In this document: positions 1 to 14,844 of the stretch, piece after piece
How the letters are laid out: the number at the start of each line of letters is the position of its first letter
Position numbering within the stretch: the first letter of the stretch is position 1
Translations under genes and position numbers: made by a program
Origin: Caulobacter sp.
GTDB lineage: Bacteria; Pseudomonadota; Alphaproteobacteria; Caulobacterales; Caulobacteraceae
Assembly (NCBI GenBank): GCA_030680355.1
Contig: JAUXVF010000031.1
Location: forward strand, 186,001 to 250,000
DNA: 64,000 nt
Reading direction: 5' to 3'
Notes under the pieces: model-generated
What the model was told of the DNA's origin: nothing
What the model saw: only the letters and a program-made list of their open reading frames with translations
Database searches by the model: none

Positions 1-329
1 ATCGAGGCCGCGACCAGCCGCCGGCCTCCGGCCAGGGCCTCGGCGATGGCCGCCGGATCGACGGCGTCCTGGCCAACCGAGGCCAGGAAGCTCGCATTGC
101 CGTACAGCAGCCGGCCGTCGCGATTGACGACGGCCGCCGCCAGTCGATCAGACTGGATGTAGGCATAGCCAACGGCGCGCAGGTCGAAGCCGGGTTCGAA
201 GGGCCGGGCGCCGCGCGCCATTTGCGCCGACAGGGCGTCAGGCGCCTCCAGCCAGATCGCCAGGGGATCGGATGGCGAGGCGTCGCCGGTGAAGGAAGCC
301 TCGCCGTCGGTCTCGCCCAAAACGCTCAT
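1..329 (-). CDS. PAS-like regulatory protein, N-terminal part (truncated by window edge)
   Basis: An open frame starts with ATG at 329 and runs leftwards off the window; an in-frame stop lies a short way upstream, so 329 is the first usable start. The visible ~109 residues are hydrophilic at the N-terminus. They contain a stretch around residues 60-80 (AAAVVNRDGRLLYGNASF) that resembles the first strands of a PAS domain, as in N-terminal sensory parts of LuxR-type regulators of Caulobacterales. The C-terminal output domain is outside the window, so the PAS reading is an inference. The gene diverges from the exported-protein genes on its right. Confidence 0.55.
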   Translation of the reverse strand, partial: MSVLGETDGEASFTGDASPSDPLAIWLEAPDALSAQMARGARPFEPGFDLRAVGYAYIQSDRLAAAVVNRDGRLLYGNASFLASVGQDAVDPAAIAEALAGGRRLVAAS

Positions 330-587
330 CAGCCCACCCAAACACGCATCAATTTCGACGCTTGGACAGCCAGGTTGTCATGCGATTTGCCATTGAGGTC
401 AGGGTTGGCGTCGAGATGCCGGTCAAACCTAGCCGCGATTACCGCCGAGGCAAGGCGTACCGGACTGCTCGATGCCTGCAAATGGGGATGGCCACATCGT
501 CCCGTCTCTCGAATGCTGTAGCAGCGCGCTTGGAGCGTCGGCGGCCGGCCTCACAGCCGACCCCTCTGCGATGGGAAAGGTCGATAG

Positions 588-932
588 ATGAAACTGGTCG
601 TAAATTGCACCGTTCTGGCAACGCTTGGAATCCTGGGGTCAGGGCTGGTCCAGTCAAGTTCGCACGCGGCCGAGCTTCAGCGGGTCTATCCGCTTTCAGC
701 CTCAGGCTGGGCTGATGTGGTCGATGAGGCCAATCTGCAACGCGATTTGGACAAGCGGGCTCGAACCATGTGCCAGATGGCGTTGAACCACGACGGTTAC
801 ACCCTGAGCAAGGTTGACTGCTTCGTCGCAGGGCCGGCCCGGCAGCGGGAACGAATTTGCAAAGCGACCGCCACCTGCAGCGGAAGCGATGCGCCGAGAG
901 ACTGGCAACCTGGCCAGGGTGCGCGCCAGTAG
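588..932 (+). CDS. small exported protein of unknown function
   Basis: This is a 114-residue protein with a clear Sec signal peptide: a short basic start, a hydrophobic core around residues 7-21 and a cleavage site near SSSHAA-E at ~28. The mature part is polar and has three cysteines (TMCQM, VDCFV, RICKA, plus ATCSG near the end), which suggests a periplasmic or secreted fold with disulfides. A purine-rich stretch (GGGAAAGG) precedes the ATG. I recognise no family. It is the first of five co-oriented genes for exported proteins that end at a recombinase gene, so it may be island cargo. Confidence 0.55.
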   Translation: MKLVVNCTVLATLGILGSGLVQSSSHAAELQRVYPLSASGWADVVDEANLQRDLDKRARTMCQMALNHDGYTLSKVDCFVAGPARQRERICKATATCSGSDAPRDWQPGQGARQ

Positions 933-998
933 CCCCGAAAGGCCGGCTGCTGCATCGCAGCCTTGGCCGCCTGACCCAACGAACCCATGGAGTTCCGA

Positions 999-1559
999 AT
1001 GACACCTCTCAACAGGGCTGGCCTTGCCGGCCTCGCTGCATTGGCCGTTCTCGCCGGTGTCCTTCCCGCCCGGGCGCAGGAATCGGCTGAAAGTCTGGTC
1101 AGGAAGGCCATGGCCGATGCGGGTGTCTACAACGGCTACAGCGTCAAGAGTATGTCGCGAGGCGTCTGGGACTTCGATGCTGGGCAAATCTGGAATGGAC
1201 TGAAGGTATCATCTTCATTCGCCACCGCTGATGACGCTTCTGGTTGGTCTCTGGTATATGTCGTTCAGAACTTTACAGATCAACCGTACTGTATTCGCCC
1301 ACATTATCGGGGCCTTCCAAGCGGCCAAAAATACTATGTCCAATCTGTAAATCAGATCGTGGATCCAGGAAAATCTCTCGCTATTATTGGAATCGCGGAC
1401 ATGGGGTCGGTAAACTGGAATGCTAGAGTAACCATTGCTTATTGGCGGCCAAATTATCAGGCTGGCAACGGAAGCTACTGTCGTTCGACGGCGCCAGAAG
1501 GGCTGGATGATTGGATAGCCGGACCTGTGGAAAGTGATTTTCCGGGAAGCAGGAGGTAG
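999..1559 (+). CDS. exported protein of unknown function, AT-rich middle
   Basis: ATG at 999 is chosen over the in-frame ATG at 987 because a GGAG motif sits just ahead of it and the product (186 residues) then begins directly with a signal peptide: a hydrophobic core at ~7-22 and cleavage near ARA-QE at ~26. The mature protein is ~160 residues with two cysteines (QPYCIRP, GSYCRST) that could form one disulfide, and aromatic-rich strands (YVVQNF, RVTIAYWRPNY). The segment from about 1200 to 1480 is clearly richer in A and T than its surroundings, as expected of transferred DNA. No family recognised. Confidence 0.6.
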   Translation: MTPLNRAGLAGLAALAVLAGVLPARAQESAESLVRKAMADAGVYNGYSVKSMSRGVWDFDAGQIWNGLKVSSSFATADDASGWSLVYVVQNFTDQPYCIRPHYRGLPSGQKYYVQSVNQIVDPGKSLAIIGIADMGSVNWNARVTIAYWRPNYQAGNGSYCRSTAPEGLDDWIAGPVESDFPGSRR

Positions 1560-1647
1560 GCGCCGGCGGGGTCATGCCGACGCCAGCCCGGGATTCGTCG
1601 CTTTATTCAGGCGACCAGCCGGTCTGTCGAAAGTCTGGAGAGAGTCG

Positions 1648-2733
1648 ATGCGCAATGTCGGTCCCGAGGGGAAGTTGGCCAGGCCAGGCGGGAAGGGCGG
1701 AGCCGCTATTCGGAAAGGCCATTCCAGGACCAGCCGGGCCGCTGGCGCCGTGTCGCTGGCGGCCGTGGTCGTCATCGCGGGCGGGGCCAGCGCGGCGCCG
1801 CGGTGTGACGCCCTTTCCAGACTGGATCGCTCGGCATTCACCGCTCTGACCGCGGCCGAGGCGGCGCGTGCGCGCGAAGTCCTGCTTGGGGGTGATGCCC
1901 CTGACCTGGGCGACGCGGATACGGTGATCCGGTTCCACGCGCCCCCCGGCTTTGGCGGCAGTGGCTCGACCTGGACGACGGCCAGGCGCGTGGATGGCGT
2001 CTGGCGGTTTGTTCGCGAGGACCTTCCGATGACGCCGCCGCCGCCGCCGCCGCCATCGGCCGATGAGATGAACGTCAGCGACATGCGGGGGTCCAGGGAG
2101 CGCAGGCGGATCCTCTATCAGCAGGGCCGGCTGGAGCCGGACCGGGCCGCCGTGATCGAAGCGGCGCTGAACGACCCCTGTCTTTCGCGGGAGCCCGACG
2201 TCGGGCTCGCCGCGCTGCCGCTGCGGGGCGGCCGGTTGGAGCCCTGTTTCGATGGCGCGACGTTCTTCCTGCAGATCGAGACCGCCGGCGGCGTCCGGAC
2301 CTTTGTGCATCACTGCACGCCCCGTTGGCGGGCGGGGACGATCATGCGCGCGCTGGAGACCGCCCGGGGTGTTGCGGGCGATGTGACCCTGACGGAGGGC
2401 CTGGCGCCGAAGGTCTACGTCGACGAGTCCGGAAACGATGTCGTTGATCCGGCGCTGATCCGGACAGAACCCCTGCGCCTTGGAGTTTCGGGCGACGGCG
2501 CCACGCGTCCGCTGACCATCACGATTGCGGGCAGGACCCTCTACGACAGCCGCCGCGATCCTGCGCCGGACGCGTCTGGCTGGCGTTACTTTCCGCCGAT
2601 CAACCCACCGCCGGCCTCCATGCGGATAACCCCTGGCGGGTGCAGCGACCCAGCGGTCCTGGACGTTCCGGAGGCAGACGGCGTCCTCGTCATCGAAGGC
2701 TGCAAGGTGGTTTGGAACGGCGTGGGGCGCTGA
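1648..2733 (+). CDS. exported protein of unknown function with polyproline stretch
   Basis: This is a 361-residue protein if ATG 1648 is used (GAGAGAG motif upstream); the open frame extends further upstream but that part overlaps the previous gene and looks non-coding. A long basic N-terminus (~30 residues) is followed by a hydrophobic segment (~32-48) ending ASA-AP, so it is exported or anchored. There is a run of seven prolines near residue ~128 and about six cysteines in the mature part (PRCDA, DPCLS, EPCFD, HHCTP, GGCSD, EGCKV), consistent with disulfides. The stop is followed two bases later by the ATG of the lectin gene, so both are probably co-translated. Function unknown. Confidence 0.6.
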   Translation: MRNVGPEGKLARPGGKGGAAIRKGHSRTSRAAGAVSLAAVVVIAGGASAAPRCDALSRLDRSAFTALTAAEAARAREVLLGGDAPDLGDADTVIRFHAPPGFGGSGSTWTTARRVDGVWRFVREDLPMTPPPPPPPSADEMNVSDMRGSRERRRILYQQGRLEPDRAAVIEAALNDPCLSREPDVGLAALPLRGGRLEPCFDGATFFLQIETAGGVRTFVHHCTPRWRAGTIMRALETARGVAGDVTLTEGLAPKVYVDESGNDVVDPALIRTEPLRLGVSGDGATRPLTITIAGRTLYDSRRDPAPDASGWRYFPPINPPPASMRITPGGCSDPAVLDVPEADGVLVIEGCKVVWNGVGR

Positions 2734-2735
2734 CG

Positions 2736-3596
2736 ATGCCCCTTCGCCGACGCAAAGCCATCATGGCGCCGGTTCTCCATGGCCTCCTCATGGCGGCCGC
2801 CATGATCGGAATCGCTGCGGCGGGTGCGCCGGTCTCGGCCGCGACACTCGAGCCGGATCGGTTGCCGGGGATGTGTCTTTCGATGACGGGGCCGGATGGC
2901 CAGGCGGAAAGCCGCGAATGTAACGGCGGTCCGCTGCAGGACCTTGTCGTCCCGGTGACGACCGGCCCGATCCGGCATGCCGGTCAGTGTCTCGTCCCCC
3001 ACGGCGGCGGGGCCTATCCCGAACTGTTCCCGACCGACTGTGATGGCTCCGTTGGCCAGGACTGGACGTTTGGCGCCAGGGGCGAGATCCGGAATGTCGC
3101 GGGCCAATGTCTGGCGGTGCTGGGTCTCTCCAGCCGGACGGGAGAACGGATCTACGCCGGTGACTGTTCGGCAGGCGTGGGCGCCCAGAGCTGGCATCGG
3201 CCGAGGTCGCCGCGGCCCTACCGGAATGTCGCGGGGAGCCTCGAGGCGACGAAGCGACCCGGGTGGTGTGTGACCTGGATCGAGGCCGGTTCGTTCATCG
3301 GCCTGGCGCCCTGCGAGGACACCGCCGCCCAACGCTTCAGCTTCAACCGGGGCGACTTCGGTCACTGGCGCAGCAAGGGGGGCTGCCTGTCCGGTTTTGG
3401 CCATGGCGCGACGCTCAATATTCGCGCCTGCGAGACCGGGCGTTCGGAGCTGTGGCTCCTCAGGTCAGACGGCCGGCTTGTGGACGGCTTCGGCCAGTGC
3501 GCCGAAGCAACGGAGGAGGGTGGAGGAATTTTGATCCGCATGGAGAGCTGTCGAAAGGTCGGATGGCAGGTTTGGTCGTTTCGAAATTCACGGTAA
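2736..3596 (+). CDS. secreted ricin-type (beta-trefoil, QxW) lectin-domain protein
   Basis: This is a 286-residue protein starting two bases after the preceding stop; the longer upstream frame lies inside that gene. An N-terminal signal peptide (hydrophobic core ~12-27, cleavage near VSAA) is followed by repeated units with QxW-like motifs and paired cysteines: QDWTF, QSWHR, QRFSF, ELWLL and QVWSF, with GQCL or GCLS starting several units. This is the hallmark of carbohydrate-binding ricin B folds, here filling the whole mature protein with no catalytic domain attached. It probably binds a polysaccharide outside the cell; the ligand cannot be told from the sequence. Confidence 0.75.
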   Translation: MPLRRRKAIMAPVLHGLLMAAAMIGIAAAGAPVSAATLEPDRLPGMCLSMTGPDGQAESRECNGGPLQDLVVPVTTGPIRHAGQCLVPHGGGAYPELFPTDCDGSVGQDWTFGARGEIRNVAGQCLAVLGLSSRTGERIYAGDCSAGVGAQSWHRPRSPRPYRNVAGSLEATKRPGWCVTWIEAGSFIGLAPCEDTAAQRFSFNRGDFGHWRSKGGCLSGFGHGATLNIRACETGRSELWLLRSDGRLVDGFGQCAEATEEGGGILIRMESCRKVGWQVWSFRNSR

Positions 3597-3624
3597 TGGC
3601 GAGTCTGTGTCTGGTCATCATCAG

Positions 3625-3636
3625 GGTCAATTGACC
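3625..3636. promoter_or_regulatory. perfect 12-bp palindrome, candidate operator
   Basis: GGTCAATTGACC reads the same on both strands and lies in the AT-rich gap before the five-repeat exported protein. Its right half, TTGACC, could serve as a -35 box, although the -10 region (TTGTAT or TATATT further on) has poor spacing. Binding by a dimeric regulator is an inference. Confidence 0.3.
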
Positions 3637-3700
3637 GAATTAGTTTCGTCGGAATTGTATATTGAACTGTAACGTCTTTCTCCATCGAAGGGGCTTCCGG

Positions 3701-4579
3701 ATGCATCAGTACAAACACGCAAGCGTGGGCGCCGATGTGGTGTTCACGCGTCGTCGCCTCGTCGCCGCCGGTCTTGCGGTGGGAGCGACGGCGTCCTTCA
3801 CGCCCGCCTGGGCGGACTCGCAATGGGAGGCTTCAGTCCTGCTGCCAGCCGGCGAGTATCAGGCCGCCGTCAACCAGATGGTCTCGCGGGGATTCAGGCC
3901 GGCTCACATCAACGTCGCCAACATCGGCGGCGAGCCGCGCTTCTCCGCCATCTTCACGGAAACAGACGGACGCGCCTGGGAGGCGCGCCATGATCTGACG
4001 TCGGCGGCCTATCAAACGGCTTTCGATCGGTTCCTGAAACAAGGGTATCGCCCAGTGCGCGTCTGCGGCTACGACAAAGGCGGCGAGATCCGCTATGCGG
4101 CCGTCTGGGAAAAGGTCCGTGGACCGGCCTTCGAGGCCCGTCACAACATGACGTCAGCCCAGTATCAGAAGACATTCAATGATCTGGTCGCCCGCGGCTA
4201 CCAACCCCGACAGTTGAGTGGTTTCAATGTGGGCGGCCAGAGCCTGTTCGCGGCGATCTTCGAAGCTGACCGGGCGACGCCATTTTCCGCCATGCACGAT
4301 CTCAACAGCCGGGGATACCAGGCGGCCTTCAACCAGATGAACGCCAAGGGTTATGTGCTTCGTCAGGTCAGTGGCTACGCAGGCGGACCTGCCCCCCGTT
4401 TCGCGGCGATCTGGACAAAGACCCCGACACCCCCTCAGGAAGCGCGCCACAACCTTACCCTCGCCGGTTTGCAGGCGACGATGGCTCCCCTCCTCGCGAA
4501 GGGTTATCGACTCGCGGACCTCTCCGCCTACGACGTCAGCGGTCAGGCCCGGTTCGCCGCTTTCTGGCTCAAGGACTGA
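3701..4579 (+). CDS. exported protein with five tandem ~50-residue repeats (BTRD1-like)
   Basis: ATG 3701 follows a GAAGGGG motif and gives 292 residues. The N-terminus has TRRRLVA followed by a hydrophobic stretch and cleavage near AWA-DS, resembling a Tat signal. The mature part is five near-equal repeats, each with the pattern EARH(D/N)LT...YQ..F..L...GY.P...SGY..GG..RFAA(I/V)W. This matches the tandem repeat family seen beside polyglycine-hydrolase-like serine enzymes (bacterial tandem repeat domain 1). No catalytic domain is attached, so it may be a binding or scaffold protein. Its five-fold internal duplication implies a repetitive solenoid or propeller-like shape (inference). Confidence 0.7.
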   Translation: MHQYKHASVGADVVFTRRRLVAAGLAVGATASFTPAWADSQWEASVLLPAGEYQAAVNQMVSRGFRPAHINVANIGGEPRFSAIFTETDGRAWEARHDLTSAAYQTAFDRFLKQGYRPVRVCGYDKGGEIRYAAVWEKVRGPAFEARHNMTSAQYQKTFNDLVARGYQPRQLSGFNVGGQSLFAAIFEADRATPFSAMHDLNSRGYQAAFNQMNAKGYVLRQVSGYAGGPAPRFAAIWTKTPTPPQEARHNLTLAGLQATMAPLLAKGYRLADLSAYDVSGQARFAAFWLKD

Positions 4580-4748
4580 TCGTCGGCCAAGTCAGTCAGC
4601 ACAGGGTCGAGTCCACCTTGCCGCTACAGCAGTAACTCCGACGATGAACGTTGCCGGCAGATAGCAGGTGTCAAGTTCGGGTCCTGATGAATAAACGTCT
4701 GACGAGGTGTAGGGCGAACAGTGGGGGGCGCCGTCTTGGGAGGTGGCC

Positions 4749-5375
4749 ATGGGCCAACTCGATCTCTTCCGCATGCCCCGCAAACCCTGGAACGCCGGTC
4801 GGATGATTGGTGCGAAAGCTCCGCTCAAGCCGAAGCATATCTGGGCGATCCGTCAGAACCTGAAGTCCCTCGGTTCCGTCAGGGATCTGGCGATGTTCAA
4901 TCTCGCCCTGGATGCCAAGCTTCGCGGTTGCGACCTTGTCAAGCTGAGGATCGCCGATGTGGCCCACGGAAGCGTCATTCGCCCGCGCTCGACGGTCATC
5001 CAGCAGAAGACCGGGCGACCGGTCCCATTCGAGATTACTGAGCCTGAGCGGGACGCACTGACGAATTGGCTGGCTCAACGCGGCCCTCGGCAAGACGACT
5101 GGCTGTTCCCGAGTCGGAGCCAGGCGGGCAGACACATCGGAACGCGACAGTATGCTCGCCTCGTCGACCGCTGGGTTCGGATGATCGATCTGAATCCCAG
5201 CGCCTACGGCACCCACAGTCTGCGACGAACCAAGGTGGCGCTGATCTATAAGAAGACCGGCAATCTTCGCGCCTGCCAACTGCTGCTCGGTCACGGCAAG
5301 CTGGAAAGCACCGTCAGATATCTCGGCATCGAGGTTGATGATGCTCTGGAGATTTCCGAACAAATCGACCTGTAG
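4749..5375 (+). CDS. minimal tyrosine recombinase (integrase catalytic domain)
   Basis: ATG 4749 is chosen because GGAGG ends five bases before it; a GTG six bases earlier is in frame. The 208-residue product is almost only a catalytic domain. All active-site residues are present: Arg59 (KLRG), Lys87 (QQKTG), His156 and Arg159 (HSLRR), His182 (LGHG) and Tyr191 (VRYLG). The usual arm-binding and core-binding N-terminal domains are missing or reduced to ~40 residues, so it resembles the short orphan recombinases of alphaproteobacteria. It lies ~350 bp left of a half tRNA gene, which fits an integrase of an element inserted there. An alternative is a domesticated or invertase-type recombinase. 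Confidence 0.85.
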   Translation: MGQLDLFRMPRKPWNAGRMIGAKAPLKPKHIWAIRQNLKSLGSVRDLAMFNLALDAKLRGCDLVKLRIADVAHGSVIRPRSTVIQQKTGRPVPFEITEPERDALTNWLAQRGPRQDDWLFPSRSQAGRHIGTRQYARLVDRWVRMIDLNPSAYGTHSLRRTKVALIYKKTGNLRACQLLLGHGKLESTVRYLGIEVDDALEISEQIDL

Positions 5376-5727
5376 GCGACGGTGGGTCCGCCATGGGGCG
5401 GGCCCACCTAAGGTCGCTCGGGGCTCGGACGCGGTAGTGGCCATCAAGCCAAGAAGCCGACGTTCCTGTCCCGTGGCAGCTTGATCGGAATGTCGCATTC
5501 CGGACGGCGAACCACTGTCCGCTCCTGGCGCGCCGTGGACGTGCGCCCGGGAAAACCGCGCGATACGGCGGGTATGGGTGAAGCGTGGACGACGGTCCCG
5601 CTCACCGTTCGTCGGCCCATTTTTCTGCCAGAAGTTTTGCTGACCCTTCGCAACCCATTGAAATGCTTGGCGTCGTTTGGAAGGCGTTTTGCGAGCAAGG
5701 TATTGATATCTCGACTATATTGGGAGC
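5376..5727. other. intergenic stretch between recombinase and half tRNA
   Basis: I see no convincing gene here; the open frames on both strands lack coding character. Just after the recombinase stop is a GC-rich hairpin (5381-5408). The right part, from about 5620 to 5725, is less GC-rich than the chromosome around it. In the model of an integrated element this is its right terminal segment and would carry recombinase binding sites. Confidence 0.4.
5381..5408 (+). terminator. GC-rich hairpin after recombinase gene
   Basis: The arms GGTGGGTCCGCC and GGCGGGCCCACC pair with one G-T type mismatch around a four-base loop, six bases after the recombinase stop. There is no T run after it, so it is at best a weak or factor-assisted terminator. 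Confidence 0.35.
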
Positions 5728-5772
5728 TTCCCAAGCTGAATGTCGCGGGTTCGATTCCCGCCGGCCGCTCCA
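5728..5772 (+). other. 3' half of a tRNA-Gly(CCC) gene, probable attachment site
   Basis: The sequence has an intact anticodon loop TTCCCAA (5728-5734, anticodon CCC), the 3' anticodon strand GCTGA, a variable loop, a perfect T arm (GCGGG TTCGATT CCCGC, 5745-5761), a 3' acceptor strand CGGCCGC, discriminator T and encoded CCA ending at 5772. The 5' half is absent: no matching GCGGCCG acceptor strand or D arm lies upstream, and the 5' anticodon strand pairs at only three of five positions. Tyrosine recombinases often cross over in the anticodon loop and duplicate the tRNA 3' half, so this is read as an att site. The intact tRNA should lie left of the window. Confidence 0.75.
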
Positions 5773-5919
5773 TCTTTTCAATGCTTTATGCGTCATCGGC
5801 CTTCAGTGGACGGTCCGGGCCGGGGCGGGCGTTTCCGTCCCCGGCCGCCGTCGCCGCCCTCACCGCGGGTTGACGGCGGGGAGGGCGCGCCGGAAAATCT
5901 CGGGAGGGGGGCGCGACGG

Positions 5920-6558
5920 GTGACCGATCTGGCGACGAGACAAGGCAGAAGCGCCGCAGCCGCGCGCCCGAGTTCCCGTGACCTGCTGCTCAATTCAGTC
6001 AGCCAGCTCTTCGCCGAGCGCAACGCCCTGACCGTCACCCTCGGCGAGATCGCCGCGCACGCGGGGGTCAACGCCGCGCTGGTGAAATACTATTTCGGCG
6101 GCAAGAGCGGCCTGTTCCTGGCCCTGCTGGAGCGGGACCTGCAGCCACAGCTGGACGCGCTCAAACTGTTGCTGACCCTCGACATTCCGCATGACCGGAA
6201 GATGCGCATCCATCTGGAGGGCATGGTCCGCACCTATTTCCGGCTGCCCTATCTGAACCGGCTGACCGGCCACGTTCTGCGGGAGCAGGAGCAGGACGAG
6301 GCCGAGCACCATCAGCGGTATGTCGAGCCGATGATCGACGCTTACCGGGTGATGATCGCGGGTGGCGTCCGGGCGGGGGTGTTCAAGCCGATGGACCCCC
6401 TGCTGTTCTATATTTCGACGGTCGGGATGTGCGATCATTTCGTGTCCGCGCGGCAGTTGCTGGCGCCCGAAGTCGGCCCAGACGGCTTCGACGAGGCGTT
6501 CGCCGCCCGCTATGCCGACCATGTGGTGCAGATCGTGCTCAGGGGCATCCTGACCTGA
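5920..6558 (+). CDS. TetR/AcrR family transcriptional regulator
   Basis: GTG 5920 is preceded by GGGAGGGG and begins just ahead of the DNA-binding domain; the longer frame upstream runs into the tRNA remnant and is low-complexity. The 212-residue product has the TetR helix-turn-helix at about residues 37-60 (TLGEIAAHAGVN..LVKYYFGGK) and an all-helical C-terminal ligand-binding domain. TetR proteins dimerise and usually repress a nearby gene until a small ligand binds. The exported-protein gene downstream on the same strand is the nearest candidate target, but nothing in the sequence proves it. It is the first gene right of the half tRNA and so probably chromosomal. Confidence 0.85.
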   Translation: MTDLATRQGRSAAAARPSSRDLLLNSVSQLFAERNALTVTLGEIAAHAGVNAALVKYYFGGKSGLFLALLERDLQPQLDALKLLLTLDIPHDRKMRIHLEGMVRTYFRLPYLNRLTGHVLREQEQDEAEHHQRYVEPMIDAYRVMIAGGVRAGVFKPMDPLLFYISTVGMCDHFVSARQLLAPEVGPDGFDEAFAARYADHVVQIVLRGILT

Positions 6559-6658
6559 GCCGGGCCACGCCGGGCCGCGACTGGGGCCAGACCTCCTCCG
6601 GTTGTCCGGGGCGCCGGATCGGCGTTAAGCTTCCCCTGCAGTTTCGGAGGGGACCGTC

Positions 6659-7360
6659 ATGAGGATCAGTCTGGCCGTCAGTGTCGCGCTGTTGATGGCG
6701 ACGCCCGCGTTGGCGGCGGATGGCGAAAACACCGAGGCCTGGCTGACCGCCACCGCCGAGAAGGTCACATTCCAGGCCCGCAAGGGCCCCAGCCTGTTCC
6801 GGCCGGGCTTTGTCATCGGCGAATACACCGGATCCTTCAAGGCCGTGGCCAGCAGCACCAGCGCCACCGGGGTCTTCAACAGCGGCAAGGCCAAGGCCAG
6901 CATCGATGTCGAGCGACCCGGCATGACCTCGGTCACCGCCGAGTGCAAGGGCGGCCAGAGCCGCCTGCATTTCGGCTGGATCACCTTCAAACGCGACAAG
7001 CTCAGCTATGTCTGCCGCTATGGCGGCGCGGCGCCGGCCGGCGCCGAGTTCGCCCTGACCCAGGCCAAGGGCGGCTTCCTGGCCCAGCTGTCGCAGCCGC
7101 AGCGCGCCGCCGAGCTGGCGTTTGGCGACATCACCCTGCGGGCGGAGACCAAATACATCTCCGGCCTGCCGCTGAGCAGCGGCGGCGCCAACAGCTATGT
7201 CATCTCCCGGCCCGACGGCGTGGTCGTCGGGGGGCTGCAGACCAACGGCTTCCGGCCGGTGTTCTGGCTGCCCCGCCAGCCGGGGCCGGAGCGCGACGCG
7301 GTGGCGCTGATGGCCGTGACGCTGTTCGCCTTCCAGGATCCGGGCCGCCCTGACCGGTAG
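6659..7360 (+). CDS. periplasmic protein of unknown function
   Basis: This is a 233-residue protein with a typical Sec signal peptide (core ~4-16, cleavage ALA-AD at ~20) and a GGAGGGG-type ribosome site just before ATG 6659. The mature part is beta-rich, with two cysteines (AECKGG and YVCRYG) likely forming a disulfide, and no transmembrane segment after the signal. I recognise no domain. It follows the TetR gene by 100 bp on the same strand. Conserved hypothetical exported proteins of this size are common in Caulobacteraceae. Confidence 0.65.
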   Translation: MRISLAVSVALLMATPALAADGENTEAWLTATAEKVTFQARKGPSLFRPGFVIGEYTGSFKAVASSTSATGVFNSGKAKASIDVERPGMTSVTAECKGGQSRLHFGWITFKRDKLSYVCRYGGAAPAGAEFALTQAKGGFLAQLSQPQRAAELAFGDITLRAETKYISGLPLSSGGANSYVISRPDGVVVGGLQTNGFRPVFWLPRQPGPERDAVALMAVTLFAFQDPGRPDR

Positions 7361-7502
7361 CGGCAGGGCGCCGAACAAGGTCTGTGTTCGACCCTGAGCG
7401 GACGATGGCGGCCATCACATCACTCGACGGCCTTCGGCGCGACCTCGCTAATGGAGCGACCCCCCTATGCGGCGGCGCAGGCGGCGCAGCTAACTCGCAA
7501 GT

Positions 7503-8396
7503 CTACGGGCGGCGTCTCGCTGTTCGGTCGATCGCCTCAACCGCCGCGCCATACAATTGGAGCGGAAGATCATGGCCCATGCCCTCCATGAGCATGAACT
7601 CCGCCCCCGGGATCGAAGCGGCCGTATCCTCGCCACAGGCCGGAAGAAAGAGCGGATCATCGCTCCCGTGAATAACCAGCGTTGGTGCGCTCACGGTCGC
7701 GAGCCGGCTCCGGCGATCACCGCCCACGGCGATTGCCGCGATCTGGCGGCCGAAGCCATTGCGATCGTGGGCTCGGTGGGCCTCCTCGACAATGAGACGA
7801 CGCGTGGCGACCTCGTCGAACGGGTAGCGGCTGCCGGCGATGCGGCGCGCGAAAGCGAGGCTATGGGCCAGGTATCCGGCTTCGTCAGAGACTGGGTCCG
7901 GAGCGGGGCTGGTCATCATCGCCATGGCGTCGGGCGTCGGCGGCGGAAGCGATGGGTTGCCGGTGCTCGACATGATCGAGGTCAGCGATGCGACACGTTC
8001 GGGATGCTCACACGCCATGACCTGCGCAATCATGCCGCCCATGGATCGCCCGACGACATGGGCCCGATCGATGGAAAAAGCATCAAGCAGCCCGACCGCA
8101 TCCGCCGCCATGTCGTGAAGCGTATAAGGGACGTCCGGCGCTCGTCCGGCCATGAGCGCGGCCGCCAGCTCGACGAAATCCGGCGCGGCGCGGTGCGTGA
8201 TGTGCGTCGAGCAGCCGGCGTCGCGATTGTCGAAACGGATCACATGATAGCCGCGCGCCGCCAGTGCGAGGCAGAAGGGAACGGTCCATCGGATCATTTG
8301 CGTCCCCAGTCCGGCGACCAGCAGGATCGCCTGATCGGAGGGCGCCCCGAACGCCTCGCAGGCCAACTCGACGCCATTTGTTTCCACGCGAGTCAT
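7503..8396 (-). CDS. alpha/beta hydrolase
   Basis: The 297-residue product has an alpha/beta-hydrolase fold with nucleophile elbow GRSMGG (Ser118), acid residue in HGSDDP (Asp246/247) and catalytic His275 in GMGHD. The order and spacing are typical of small esterases, for example the aclacinomycin methylesterase/RdmC group. The oxyanion-region strand AILLVAGLGTQM is near residue 25. There is no signal peptide, so it acts in the cytoplasm; the substrate is unknown. AGGAGA lies eight bases before the ATG, and a good promoter with flanking repeats lies upstream (8446-8489), so the gene is probably regulated on its own. Confidence 0.85.
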   Translation of the reverse strand: MTRVETNGVELACEAFGAPSDQAILLVAGLGTQMIRWTVPFCLALAARGYHVIRFDNRDAGCSTHITHRAAPDFVELAAALMAGRAPDVPYTLHDMAADAVGLLDAFSIDRAHVVGRSMGGMIAQVMACEHPERVASLTSIMSSTGNPSLPPPTPDAMAMMTSPAPDPVSDEAGYLAHSLAFARRIAGSRYPFDEVATRRLIVEEAHRAHDRNGFGRQIAAIAVGGDRRSRLATVSAPTLVIHGSDDPLFLPACGEDTAASIPGAEFMLMEGMGHDLPLQLYGAAVEAIDRTARRRP

Positions 8397-8445
8397 CGCC
8401 GGCTTCTCCTGACCACCCGTAACCCGTGCGGGGTAGTTCGGAGGG

Positions 8446-9682: not shown

Positions 9683-9780
9683 GGGCCGCAGCATCCTGCG
9701 GCGCGGCCAACTTGTCACCTGTGGCCGGTTGATCTTTGCGACGAAAGACGGGAACGAAGACCCGCATTGAGGAGACGATC

Positions 9781-10461
9781 ATGACGAGCAGGACTTTTGC
9801 GATCACCGGCGGCTTCGGACGGCTCGGGGCGGCGGTGGCGGCGGCGGCGCTGGAAACGGGCGCCCGCGTGGCGCTGATTGACGCCGCGCCGGAAGGCCGG
9901 GGGCTGGCCGACGGCGTTCTGGCCCTCGGCGGCGTCGACCTGTCCGACAGCGATCAGGCCCGGGCCGCCATGGACAAGGTCGCCCAGGCGTTCGGCGGCC
10001 TCGACGTGCTGGTCAATGTCGCCGGCGGCTTCACCTGGCAGACCCTGGCCGATGGCGACCTGGCCGACTGGAGCCGGATGTTCACCCTCAACACCCTGAC
10101 CTGCGCAACAGCCTGCAAGGCGGCCCTGCCGCATCTGCTGGCGGCCTGCGACGGTCGGATCGTCAGCGTCGGCGCCGGCGGTGCGCTCAAGGCCAGCGGC
10201 GGCATGGGTCCCTACGCCGCGTCCAAGGCCGGGGTGCACCGCCTGACCGAGAGTCTGGCCGAGGAACTGAAAGGCAAGGTGACCGTCAACGCCGTGCTGC
10301 CCTCGATCATCGACACCCCGACCAACCGCGCCGATATGCCGGACGCTGATTTCGGCGCCTGGGTGACGGCCGACGAGGTGGCCCAGGCCATCCTCTGGCT
10401 CGCTTCGAAGCAGGCCAGCGGCGTTACTGGCGCGCTGTTGCCCGTTTCCGGCAGAGTCTGA
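9781..10461 (+). CDS. short-chain dehydrogenase/reductase
   Basis: ATG 9781 follows GAGGAG at good spacing and gives 226 residues. The N-terminal Rossmann motif is TGGFGRLG (9-16), the catalytic Tyr145 and Lys149 are in YAASK, and an NVAGG motif stands for the usual NNAG. The acidic residue after beta-2 (IDAAPEG) hints at NAD preference, which is an inference. The family oxidises or reduces alcohols and ketones; the substrate is not evident. The ExoD gene follows 57 bp later on the same strand and may be co-transcribed. Confidence 0.85.
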   Translation: MTSRTFAITGGFGRLGAAVAAAALETGARVALIDAAPEGRGLADGVLALGGVDLSDSDQARAAMDKVAQAFGGLDVLVNVAGGFTWQTLADGDLADWSRMFTLNTLTCATACKAALPHLLAACDGRIVSVGAGGALKASGGMGPYAASKAGVHRLTESLAEELKGKVTVNAVLPSIIDTPTNRADMPDADFGAWVTADEVAQAILWLASKQASGVTGALLPVSGRV

Positions 10462-10518
10462 AACTTCTGTTTTCGCGGGCGTGACCGGCGGGCGGGAACG
10501 CGCTAAGGCCGAAAGCCG

Positions 10519-11142
10519 ATGGCCGACTCTCACCACCCCCGCCGCATCTCCGAAATCCTGGACGGCATAGCCACCGCCCGGCGCAAGACCGTGTCGGTGC
10601 AGGACGTCCTCGAGGCGTTCGGCGACCGGGCCTTCGGTGCCCTGCTGTTCGTGTTCGCCGGGCCCGTGGCCCTGCCCATGCCGCCGGGGGTTTCGGCCAT
10701 TCTCGGCGCCCCGCTGCTGTTCATCGCCGCCCAGCTGATGGTTGGGCGCCGCACCCTGTGGCTGCCCAAGGTGGTGGTCGAACGGACCATGACGCGGACC
10801 GACTTCGCCGCCCTGATGGAAAAGCTGTCGCCCTATCTGACCTGGCTGGAGCGCCGGCTGAAGCCCCGTTTCACGTTCCTCTACAATCCCTGGCTCGACC
10901 GGCTGACCGGCCTGATCTGCCTGGTGCTGGCCGTGATCGTCTTTCTGCCGATCCCCTTCGGCAACATGCTGCCGGCCCTGGCCATCGCCGCCTTCGGCCT
11001 GGGCGTGGCGGAGCGGGACGGGGTGATGGGCCTGTTCGGCGGCGTCGCGGCCGCGGTCAGCATCCTGGTGCTCGCCGTCCTGTCCAAGGCCATCATCGCC
11101 GGCATCACCGCCTTCGTGGTGACGCTGCTGAAGATGTTCTGA
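10519..11142 (+). CDS. ExoD family membrane protein (exopolysaccharide synthesis-related)
   Basis: This is a 207-residue protein with the ExoD family layout: an N-terminal helical part (SVQDVLEAFGDRAFGALLF), a conserved FAGPVALPMPPGVS segment, and three to four transmembrane helices toward the C-terminus (~45-75, 130-150, 155-205). ExoD was named for an exopolysaccharide phenotype in Sinorhizobium; its biochemical role is unknown. It sits in the inner membrane. The stop lies 12 bp from the stop of the convergent monooxygenase gene. Confidence 0.85.
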   Translation: MADSHHPRRISEILDGIATARRKTVSVQDVLEAFGDRAFGALLFVFAGPVALPMPPGVSAILGAPLLFIAAQLMVGRRTLWLPKVVVERTMTRTDFAALMEKLSPYLTWLERRLKPRFTFLYNPWLDRLTGLICLVLAVIVFLPIPFGNMLPALAIAAFGLGVAERDGVMGLFGGVAAAVSILVLAVLSKAIIAGITAFVVTLLKMF

Positions 11143-11154
11143 GGTGACGACCGC

Positions 11155-12609
11155 CTAGCCGAAGACGTAGTCCTCAAGCACGGGATGCCGCATCCGCTTC
11201 ATATAGGTGGCAGTGTCGTCGCTCCAGTTGTTGGTGATCTTGCCCGAGGCGGTCTTGTACCAGCTTGAGCAGGAACCGGCCCAGGCGGTGTCCTCCAGGT
11301 CGCGCTGTAGTTCAACGTTGAACTTTATGAACGCCTCCGGCTTGATGGCCATCGATTTGGCCCCGCGCCGCTTCAGTTCGCCCATCGCCTCGACCAGGTA
11401 GCGGACCTGGGCCTCGATCATCACAATAATCGAATTGTGCCCCAGGTTGGTGTTGGGGCCATAGAGCATGAACAGGTTGGGGAAGCCGGTGACCGTCACA
11501 CCCAGATAGGCCTCGGCCCCGTCGGCCCAGGCCGCGTTCAGGGTCTGGCCGCCGGCGCCGACGATCTCGACCGGCGAGATGAAGTCGGTTGTGACAAAGC
11601 CGGTGCCGAACACCAGCACGTCACAGGCATGCTCGGCGCCGTCAGTGGTCCGAACCCCGCCCGCGGTGACCGCCTCGACCCCTTCGGTGACCAACTCGAC
11701 ATTGGGCCGCATCAGGGCCTGGTAGTAGTCGTCGGACACCAGGATGCGCTTGCAGCCGATCGGATAGTCGGGGGTCAGCTTGGCCTTCAGAACCGGGTCG
11801 GTGACCACGCCGTCGAGGTATTTGATCGCCAGGGCCTTGAAGCTGTCCGCCGATTTCGTGCCCGTTTTGAACGCCGCGAACCGCAGGTCCATCATCTGCC
11901 AGAGGAACCAGCGATTGAGGCGGTCGAGGGCGGGGATGGTCCGGTAGAGCCATTTCTCGAAGTCGCTGAAGGCGCGGTCCAGTCGCGGCACGATGTAGTT
12001 GGGCGTGCGCTGGAAAACGATGACCTTGCCGGCGGTCTTGGCGATCTCGGGGATGTACTGGATGGCGCTGGCCCCGGCGCCGATACAGCCGACGGTCTTG
12101 CCGGTCAGGTCGACGTCGTGCCGCCAGCGGGCGGAGTGCCAGGCGTCGCCCTTGAAGACTTCCCGACCAGGAATGCCGGCGAACCCGGGCTTGTTCAGCT
12201 GGCCCAGACCCGAGACCAGCACCGGCGCCGACAGGGTCTCGCCACTCTTCAGCGTAACGGTCCAGCGGGCGGCGGTTTCGTCCCAGACCGCCTTTTCGAC
12301 TTCGGCGTGGAAGCGGAAGCGATCCTTGACCCCGAACTGGTCGGCGACCCGTTCCATATAGTCGCGGATCTCGTTGTGGGGCGAGAAGGCGCGGCTCCAG
12401 TCGGGATTGAGGGCGAAGGAAAAGGAATAGAGGCGGGAGGGCACGTCGCAGCAGGCGCCGGGGTAGGTGTTGTCGCGCCAGGTGCCGCCGATCCGGTCGC
12501 CCTTCTCGAGCACGACGAAACGGCCGAACCCGGCCTCCTGCAGCTTTACGGCCGCGTTCAGACCGGCAAAGCCCGCCCCGATGATGATGGCGTCCAGATC
12601 ATCGACCAT
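11155..12609 (-). CDS. flavin-containing monooxygenase, Baeyer-Villiger type
   Basis: The 484-residue product has FAD-binding motif GAGFAG (11-16), the Baeyer-Villiger fingerprint FKGDAWHSARW (152-162, pattern FxGxxxHxxxW) and a second Rossmann motif GAGASA (177-182) for NADPH. A late ATG-type motif FGTGF is also present. Such enzymes insert oxygen into ketones or oxidise soft heteroatoms, using FAD and NADPH in the cytosol. The substrate is unknown; in this family terpenoid, steroid or cyclic ketones are common. The gene diverges from the EF-G-like gene, with a ~200 bp shared upstream region. Confidence 0.9.
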   Translation of the reverse strand: MVDDLDAIIIGAGFAGLNAAVKLQEAGFGRFVVLEKGDRIGGTWRDNTYPGACCDVPSRLYSFSFALNPDWSRAFSPHNEIRDYMERVADQFGVKDRFRFHAEVEKAVWDETAARWTVTLKSGETLSAPVLVSGLGQLNKPGFAGIPGREVFKGDAWHSARWRHDVDLTGKTVGCIGAGASAIQYIPEIAKTAGKVIVFQRTPNYIVPRLDRAFSDFEKWLYRTIPALDRLNRWFLWQMMDLRFAAFKTGTKSADSFKALAIKYLDGVVTDPVLKAKLTPDYPIGCKRILVSDDYYQALMRPNVELVTEGVEAVTAGGVRTTDGAEHACDVLVFGTGFVTTDFISPVEIVGAGGQTLNAAWADGAEAYLGVTVTGFPNLFMLYGPNTNLGHNSIIVMIEAQVRYLVEAMGELKRRGAKSMAIKPEAFIKFNVELQRDLEDTAWAGSCSSWYKTASGKITNNWSDDTATYMKRMRHPVLEDYVFG

Positions 12610-12806
12610 GCCGCTGCTTCCTCCGTGTTTTCACGAAGTATTGCGCGCCTTCCCGGCCGGGGGAAGGCTGACCCGAGGTCACCACGCCTTGCCCTCGTGG
12701 CCTGTCGGGTGTGGAGTAGCGGGGTGGGGCTCGGGTCTCGCGCCCCCTGAACCAGAAAAGACGCGGCGAGGCCGCGGTCTCGCTGCCGCATGGTGGGAGA
12801 CAACGC

Positions 12807-14840
12807 ATGTCCGCAAGGAAATCTGGCGCGGTTCGGGCGATCGGTCTGGTCGGTCCGAACGGCGCCGGCAAGACAACCCTCTTCGAAGCTCTGTTGCACG
12901 CCGCCGGGGCGTCTGACCGTCAGGGCATCGTCGGCCAGACCGGCGCCGTGGGCGATGGTTCGCCCGAGGCCAAACAGGCCGGCCAGTCGGTGGAAATGAA
13001 TCTGGCCGCTTTCGAGATGCTGGATGATCGCTACGTCCTCATCGATTGTCCGGGCTCGGTGGAGTTCCGGGCCGAGGCCGACCACGGCCTGTCCGCCCTC
13101 GACCTGGCCGTCGTGGTCATCGACCCTGATCCGGACAAGGCGCTGTTGATTCAGCCGTGGCTCCGCGATCTGGAGCGGCGAGGCGTGCCCCGCGTGATCT
13201 TCGTCAACAAGATCGATCAGGCGCGCGGCGACGTCGATGAACTGCTGCGGGCCCTGCAGCCGATGAGCGCGGTCCCGCTGGTCGCCCGTCAGCTGCCGAT
13301 CTGGAAGGACGAGCATGTCAGCGGTTTCGTCGACTTGGCCCTGGAACGGGCCTTCGTCTACCAGGCCGGCAAACCGTCGAAGCCGGTGGCGCTGCCCGAG
13401 GACCTCAGGGACGAGGAGGCGGCGGCCCGCTTCCACATGCTCGAACAGATGGCCGACTTCGATGACGCCCTGATGGAGATGTTGCTCGAGGATGAGACGC
13501 CCAGTCAGGACGCCATCTTCGCCGACATCATCACCGAGACGCGGGCAGGCCTGATCGCGCCGGTCTTCTTCGGCGCGGCGCTGCAGGCCAACGGGGTTCG
13601 CCGCCTGCTCAAGGCCCTGCGCCATGACGCGCCGGAACCGGACGCCGCCGCCGCCCGGCTGGGACTGACGGGGCCGGGCGTCCATGTTCTCAAGATCTCC
13701 CATTCGGGTCATGCCGGCAGGATGACCTATGGCCGGGTGCTGGGCGCGACCCTGGCAGACGGCGCCGAGCTCTTCCTGCCTGACGGCGAGAAGGGGCGGG
13801 TCGGCGGCCTGTTCACGGTCCAGGGTCAGGCCACGCGCAAGGTCCCCTCGGCCGAGGTCGGCGACGTGGTCGCCCTGGGCCGGCTCGACGGCGTCCATGC
13901 CGGCGACCGGCTGATGGCGGACCGGGCGCTCGCGACCGGTCAGCCGCCATCGCCCCCGATGACGCCGGTCTATGAACTGGCCATCGTCACCAGGGACCGA
14001 AAGGATGACGTGCGGCTCTCCGGCGCGCTGCAGAAGCTGCTGGAGGAGGACGGAGGCCTCAGCCTGGTCCACGACGCGGCCCTGCACGAGATGCGGCTGG
14101 GCGGCCAGGGCGCGGCCCATCTGCGGATCACCCTCGACCGGCTTGCCCGCCGTTATCAGGTCGACGTCGAGGTCAGCACGCCGGCCACGCCCTATGCCGA
14201 AACCCTCCGCAAGCCGGTCACCCAGCGTGGGCGGCACAAGAAGCAGTCAGGCGGTCACGGTCAGTTCGCCGACACCCTGCTGGAGATCAAACCGCTGCCG
14301 CGCGGGGCGGGCTTCCGGTTCGACGATCGCATCACCGGCGGTGTTGTGCCCAAACAGTGGATTCCGGCGGTCGAACAGGGGGTGCGGGACGCCATGGAGC
14401 GCGGCCCTCTCGGCTTCCCGGTGGTCGATGTGGCGGTCACCCTGATCGATGGTTCTTTTCATGCGGTCGACTCTTCGGAACTGGCCTTCCGCACGGCCGG
14501 CCGTATCGGCATGAGCGAGGGCCTGGCCCAGGCCGGCCCGATCCTGCTGGAGCCCGTGGAGAAGCTTGTCATCCACGCGCCCAACGCCGCGACGGCGCGG
14601 ATCATCTCCTCGATCGCCAACCGGCGGGGGCAGATCCTTGGCTTCGACGCCCGCGACGACTGGCCCGGCTGGGACAGTATCGAGGTCTTCATGCCCCACG
14701 ACGAGCGCCAGGACTTCATCCTCGATCTGCGCTCGATGACCCAGGGCCTGGGCGTCTTCGAGGCAGCCTTCGATCATCGCGTCGAACTGACCGGGCGCAA
14801 GGCTGACGAAGTAGCGCAACGGGGACGGGTGGCCGCGTAG
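12807..14840 (+). CDS. elongation factor G-like GTPase (EF-G paralogue)
   Basis: The 677-residue product has EF-G domain order throughout: GTPase domain with P-loop GPNGAGKT (16-23), DCPG (80-83) and NKID (134-137), then domains II, III, IV (SGGHGQFAD) and V. It differs from canonical EF-G: the P-loop is not of the AHxDxGKT type and the switch I motif RGITI is absent, as in the EF-G-like paralogues of alphaproteobacteria and mycobacteria. Its ribosomal role is not established; translocation, recycling or stress roles are possible. GGGAG precedes ATG 12807. It stands alone, away from rpsL/rpsG/tuf, which also argues for the paralogue. Confidence 0.88.
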   Translation: MSARKSGAVRAIGLVGPNGAGKTTLFEALLHAAGASDRQGIVGQTGAVGDGSPEAKQAGQSVEMNLAAFEMLDDRYVLIDCPGSVEFRAEADHGLSALDLAVVVIDPDPDKALLIQPWLRDLERRGVPRVIFVNKIDQARGDVDELLRALQPMSAVPLVARQLPIWKDEHVSGFVDLALERAFVYQAGKPSKPVALPEDLRDEEAAARFHMLEQMADFDDALMEMLLEDETPSQDAIFADIITETRAGLIAPVFFGAALQANGVRRLLKALRHDAPEPDAAAARLGLTGPGVHVLKISHSGHAGRMTYGRVLGATLADGAELFLPDGEKGRVGGLFTVQGQATRKVPSAEVGDVVALGRLDGVHAGDRLMADRALATGQPPSPPMTPVYELAIVTRDRKDDVRLSGALQKLLEEDGGLSLVHDAALHEMRLGGQGAAHLRITLDRLARRYQVDVEVSTPATPYAETLRKPVTQRGRHKKQSGGHGQFADTLLEIKPLPRGAGFRFDDRITGGVVPKQWIPAVEQGVRDAMERGPLGFPVVDVAVTLIDGSFHAVDSSELAFRTAGRIGMSEGLAQAGPILLEPVEKLVIHAPNAATARIISSIANRRGQILGFDARDDWPGWDSIEVFMPHDERQDFILDLRSMTQGLGVFEAAFDHRVELTGRKADEVAQRGRVAA

Positions 14841-14844
14841 GGGG

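Follow-up and report, generated by a model that had tools for sequence, protein, structure and literature searches.

A detached half of tRNA-Gly(CCC) in Caulobacter sp. marks the end of one of two islands that very probably occupy the same tRNA gene from opposite sides

What is the 3' half of a glycine tRNA gene doing by itself in a Caulobacter genome, and to which element does it belong? The window analysed here is a stretch of 64,000 nucleotides (G000:C9:186001-250000, so that window position x equals C9 position x+186000) from a genome assembly, G000, of 3,352,613 bases on 31 contigs that is 90.9% complete. Direct reading of AGCTTCCCAAGCTGAATGTCGCGGGTTCGATTCCCGCCGGCCGCTCCA, the 48 nt at window 5725-5772 on the plus strand, revealed the anticodon arm, variable loop, T arm, 3' acceptor strand and CCA of tRNA-Gly(CCC); the D arm and the 5' acceptor strand are missing, and ARAGORN called no tRNA in the whole window. 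The first-pass annotation, made from the letters of the window, had listed the same retained and lost parts, and this description was borne out. The half itself is real, though the start assigned to it, 5724, lies one base outside the match and the true start is 5725.

The half had further been interpreted as an attachment-type duplication with a crossover in the anticodon loop, for which an intact tRNA-Gly(CCC) with a matching 3' end should exist to the left. Such a gene was found on the same contig at C9:139664-139738. The two loci share an exact direct repeat of 57 bp on the plus strand (window 5725-5781, C9:191725-191781, versus C9:139691-139747), the copies of which are 52,034 bp apart; the repeat is made up of the tRNA 3' half and 9 bp beyond the tRNA, is far above chance in length, and places the break in the anticodon arm, in agreement with that interpretation. 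When up to three mismatches were allowed across the whole of G000, the 3' half was detected at only two places (the window copy and inside the intact gene) and the 5' half also at two; since each half was counted twice, this incomplete genome yielded a single intact tRNA-Gly(CCC). The half tRNA is a real mobile-island end, as had been observed, and forms the right end (attR) of a 52.0-kb element with catabolic cargo between the intact tRNA and the detached half (C9:139691-191724), herein called island R, of which window 1-5724 is the right-hand end.

An uninterrupted site with an intact tRNA was identified in G029. The empty site that had been sought in sister strains is hence present within the genus, in a comparison between species. 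Alignment to G029 extends along the left flank as far as C9:122474 and begins again with the right repeat at C9:191725, with eight left-flank and four right-flank genes matching in order between the two genomes. Because the G029 flanks meet at 122474/191725, the single tRNA-Gly(CCC) found in G000 would be a chimera composed of the halves of two elements, joined in the 13-bp palindromic anticodon-arm DNA, and by the same flank comparison window 5725-5772 is the original chromosomal 3' half, displaced. Collinearity on the right, at 81% DNA identity, was observed over window 9780-14842, which encodes SDR, ExoD-like, FAD monooxygenase-like and EF-G-like genes. However, the distance from the detached half to the SDR gene is 4.0 kb in G000 versus 0.46 kb in G029, indicating that the right flank is not fully native. 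Part of this 4.0 kb, a beta-lactamase-like gene, is at the same place in G035 and G087; a comparison of gene starts by eye did not place the TetR gene and the 233-aa ORF there in G028, G029, G035 or G087. Window positions of about 5782-8400, with the TetR and 233-aa genes, may be a remnant of an older tandem element. Window 5773-5795 resembles an R-type attL arm (nine identical bases, then 10 of 15), and the family motif TCAATGACTTAG occurs to the right of the detached half with three mismatches. A tandem-like arrangement was also noted in G086, in which there are two detached 3' halves, one of them followed by the family motif.

Island R has the features of a 3'-fragment tRNA island: it is enclosed by an intact tRNA and a 3' fragment of like orientation, it carries an integrase of the tyrosine recombinase family, and a relative (G029, another species) has an unoccupied site. 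Three tyrosine-recombinase ORFs are located on the minus strand at its left end. The one beside the intact tRNA (C9:139778-140968) and the second (C9:141349-142425; 358 aa) each contain a Pfam integrase domain; the third (C9:142422-144401; 659 aa) matches PHROGs integrase families, and the Pfam search returned no integrase domain for it. The latter two (C9:141349-144401) overlap each other, adjoin the first and share 31% identity over 179 aa; we presume this pair to be like TnpA/TnpB of Tn554. Beyond the recombinase ORFs lies a long run of metabolic genes. In the searches, five of these genes were similar to those for acyl-CoA dehydrogenase, enoyl-CoA hydratase, 3-hydroxyacyl-CoA dehydrogenase, thiolase and an IclR-type regulator. 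The products of nine others that were searched comprise, among others, an amidohydrolase, an MFS transporter, an FAA hydrolase, a CoA-transferase, subunits with molybdopterin and 2Fe-2S, and a TonB-dependent receptor. Gene calls to the left of the window were produced by a simple script and the gene borders are approximate. No relaxase or type IV secretion genes, as would be expected of an integrative and conjugative element, were detected among the island proteins searched, which represent part of the genes. Near the right end of the island, window 2640-3596 encodes ricin-type beta-trefoil lectin repeats and window 3662-4579 five BTRD1 (polyglycine hydrolase-like) repeats.

Which recombinase, then, brought island R to this site? 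The first-pass annotation had taken the short XerC-like tyrosine recombinase at window 4743-5375 (4749-5375 with a later start; plus strand) as the mark of the element. The ORF is real and carries the Pfam Phage_integrase domain (E 2.2e-17), and it is only 350 bp from the detached half, as might be expected if it, and not the integrase at C9:139778-140968, had integrated the island. Its relatives, however, are scattered over plasmids (tblastn matches on 2,216 of 72,556 plasmid records, the best-ranked at 71% identity), whereas integrases of the other family are situated just 3' of tRNA-Gly(CCC) in G001, G028, G086, G472, G372 and G006. Since the integrase beside the intact tRNA thus belongs to a family that adjoins this same tRNA in relatives, C9:139778-140968 is the likely integrase of island R. 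Integration by the short recombinase is unlikely, and that gene is probably a passenger at the far end of the island. The boundary had been correctly recognized, the recombinase named for it is doubtful, and a second island, on the 5' side of the intact tRNA, was outside the view of the window.

This second island became apparent from a repeat search around the intact gene, which revealed a detached 5' half of tRNA-Gly(CCC) at C9:122435-122474, in the same orientation as the intact gene and within a 40-bp repeat containing one mismatch. The intervening 17.2 kb (C9:122475-139663), on the 5' side of the intact tRNA, is designated island L. It encodes a tyrosine integrase (C9:138460-139566; plus strand) that ends about 98 bp before the tRNA, and the element has the upstream 5' fragment in the same orientation, with an integrase in between, that characterizes a 5'-fragment tRNA island. 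The L and R integrases are 32-33% identical and are arranged as mirror images, each facing the tRNA from its own side. The detached 5' half reads GCGGCCG and has a flank as in the empty site of G029, whereas the intact gene reads GCGGTCG and is preceded by DNA different from that G029-like flank; it is on this basis that the 5' half of the intact gene is regarded as the newcomer. For an element to rebuild the 5' half of a tRNA gene, it has to bring a promoter as well. A sigma-70 consensus scan upstream of the intact tRNA-Gly(CCC) yielded no promoter and a terminator scan beside it yielded none; the intact tRNA may now be transcribed from island L DNA, that is, by promoter take-over. The cargo of island L includes a Type IIG restriction-modification protein, a serine resolvase and an SRAP protein, as well as a PLD-like protein whose match is below the Pfam cut-off. 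Relatives of the L integrase were detected on 17 of 50,697 phage records, the top-ranked one at 38% identity.

The ends of both islands have in common a palindromic 13 bp of anticodon-arm DNA, AGCTTCCCAAGCT, at window 5725-5737, C9:122462 and C9:139691. These 13 bp contain both the end of the left repeat and the start of the right one; they form an inverted repeat around the anticodon and are the putative crossover region.

To what extent are these arrangements found elsewhere? Among 75 genomes of the same genus, two 5' halves were present in three (G000, G005 and G087) and a detached 3' half in nine (G000, G001, G006, G028, G035, G080, G086, G087 and G089). The distance between the intact gene and the detached 3' half is 77 kb in G028, 44 kb in G001, 52 kb in G080 and 17 kb in G089. 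The same half in all relatives, with no differences in cargo, had been named as the sign against an island; instead, island lengths differ and several relatives are without a detached half. When an integrase alignment was used for a search at the family level, 52 of 249 genomes had a match; 30 loci were retrieved, and it was these 30 that were classified, with the nearest tRNA recorded; a separate scan of genome contigs contributed only four loci. Further 5'-side cases at tRNA-Gly(CCC) were found in three other genera (G368, G371 and G498), each with two 5' halves, such that the 5'-side integrases are distributed over six genomes of four genera and two 5' halves are present in all six. One-sided islands were observed in both forms, on the 5' side only in G005, G368 and G371 and on the 3' side only in G001, G028, G080 and G089. 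G498 is two-sided, with a 5'-side island and a remnant of an R-type integrase 3' of the same tRNA. In G087 the island is on the 5' side and the detached 3' half is on another contig. At the end of the contig bearing the G087 island (L066; G087:C134:36105-36163), a tRNA 5' half is joined to the left end of the element, with 59 bp identical to the left junction; the intact tRNA is unassembled in G087 because this second 5' half runs into the element's left end at the contig end. This attP-like joint, seen in the assembly, is a circle, a tandem or an assembly effect.

Other tRNA genes are affected as well. A detached 5' piece was in the expected place in one of two tRNA-Thr cases (G008 but not G431) and in both tRNA-Lys cases (G400 and G469). 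In the islands concerned, at tRNA-Thr(TGT) in G008 (L127) and at tRNA-Lys(CTT) in G400 (L125) and G469 (L123), the 5' pieces are about 40, 43 and 8 kb upstream, respectively. G431 is 5'-sided by orientation and was not counted, as the partial copy is far away and on the other strand. With respect to cargo, a serine-recombinase (resolvase-like) gene is present in the 5'-side islands of G000, G005, G087, G498 and G371 (L064, L065, L066, L142 and L145), the G000 copy having been identified by database search and the other four by eye, and restriction-modification genes occur in those of G000 and G087.

In a tree of 38 integrases, the six of the 5'-side Gly(CCC) group cluster as a clade (bootstrap 100, SH-aLRT 93); the branch immediately outside it, from G006, is an integrase on the 3' side of this tRNA. 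A minimum of three changes of polarity is required on this tree, as judged from nine confirmed 5'-side and 18 3'-side rows, the remaining 11 of the 38 being without a polarity label. A single 5'-side clade was rejected (p-AU 0.0007); the 5'-side group had been named before the topology test, although the loci used to name it were those then tested. Rows were labelled 3'-side by gene orientation, a detached 3' half having been seen for G000, G001, G006, G028, G080 and G086 only; G080 was labelled by its detached 3' half, and its integrase sits at the far end. A small gene that precedes the integrase and that, by eye, looks AlpA-like in G000, G005 and G087 was considered as a tracker of polarity and ruled out, as the 5'-side G371 has another kind; the G000 copy gave no Pfam match. 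A pair of TGTAAAC motifs at -80/-68, counted from tRNA base 7, precedes all five intact tRNAs of the 5'-side Gly clade, and the pair is visible in G087 too. No TGTAAAC occurs in that stretch at 32 other matching tRNA loci (38 hand-picked loci were given and one was unmatched), among them that of G046, which has a 5'-side integrase match. In G000, G087 and G498 the detached half, too, is followed by a similar motif. These TGTAAAC-type motifs are candidate integrase arm sites.

Three pieces of the tRNA and the repeats have been demonstrated, as have an empty site in G029, the integrases and the fact that both arrangements recur, and we are highly confident that two separate islands, L and R, occupy one tRNA-Gly(CCC) from opposite sides. 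Points against this reading are that the empty site is that of another species, that the right flank is not wholly native, that the sigma-70 scan gave no promoter, and that G046 combines a 5'-side integrase match with the lack of the TGTAAAC pair. Island R would have recombined in the anticodon-arm DNA, given the gene a new 3' half and moved the original one to window 5725-5772. Island L would have used the same arm in the opposite polarity, provided a new 5' half preceded by island DNA, and moved the original 5' half to C9:122435-122474. The two integrases, of one family and each beside the intact gene, presumably carried out the respective insertions, and both islands may still be able to excise. 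The outermost halves and the 13-bp common core would also fit a single 69-kb element that interrupted the host tRNA at a short core in the anticodon arm and has an entire tRNA-Gly(CCC) of its own in its interior, as in the phages described to have tRNA-dependent lysogeny (PMC10865867). This geometry is very improbable here, given that relatives contain islands of this integrase family on the 5' side alone or on the 3' side alone, with the intact tRNA at the island edge, that L and R each have their own integrase adjoining the tRNA, and that the right repeat extends 9 bp past the tRNA; the intact tRNA lies where two islands meet. Genomes often contain partial tRNA copies, but that the detached halves are chance duplications without island marks can practically be dismissed, as the breakpoints of both fall within one 13-bp arm, the stretch that they enclose is missing from G029, each segment has an integrase beside the intact gene, and the arrangement recurs in other genera.

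How two islands came to share one gene might be accounted for as follows, although we propose this tentatively and rate its chances at somewhat under even. The dyad symmetry of the anticodon arm could make one tRNA gene an attachment site in both polarities at once, and one integrase family could flip polarity repeatedly, so that a second element enters an occupied site from the other side. The host tRNA-Gly(CCC) would then consist of the halves of two elements and be transcribed from element upstream DNA, tying tRNA supply to both. Within one integrase family and one bacterial family, replacement of the 5' part is seen at three kinds of tRNA (Gly, Thr and Lys), and close relatives have opposite polarity (the 5'-side Gly clade versus the 3'-side G006 integrase). 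Two questions thereby become testable: what sets the polarity of integration at a near-symmetric site, and can a host live on a tRNA gene with both halves and the promoter derived from mobile elements?

Taken alone, the detached 3' half is an ordinary kind of finding. The Islander collection is reported to contain 3,919 islands, 3,760 with a 3' fragment and 159 with a 5' fragment, and 125 tandems of two or more islands (PMC4383910). Island R resembles the anticodon-centred class of that collection (PMC4383910): the complete tRNA borders one end and an equally oriented 3' fragment the other, an integrase is on board, and the break falls in the anticodon arm. As that class is described, there is no essential difference except for the second island on the 5' side of the same tRNA. 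Islands that replace the 5' part of a tRNA are said to be rarely met in bacteria, since the tRNA promoter is replaced too (PMC8371274), and pTN3 of Thermococcus is an archaeal 5'-fragment case (PMC5495485, PMC8371274). Like the 5'-fragment islands and pTN3, island L restores the 5' half and parts the tRNA from its original promoter; unlike pTN3, which according to these accounts splits its own integrase gene on integration (PMC5495485, PMC8371274), it has a whole integrase gene, and in its integrase family polarity differs between close relatives. The locus shares with the Islander tandems (PMC4383910) the presence of more than one island at one tRNA gene but, compared with them as a class, L and R are on opposite sides and restore opposite halves. 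With tRNA-dependent lysogeny it shares the break in the anticodon region and a host tRNA gene in two halves; the phages of that system are described as carrying a complete tRNA with no rebuilding (PMC10865867), whereas here each island appears to rebuild one half. Among the matches listed by a limited keyword search of the literature, no title or abstract described a tRNA with islands on opposing sides. What is less ordinary at this locus is that opposed islands supply both halves of the one tRNA-Gly(CCC) found, and that their integrase family switches polarity.
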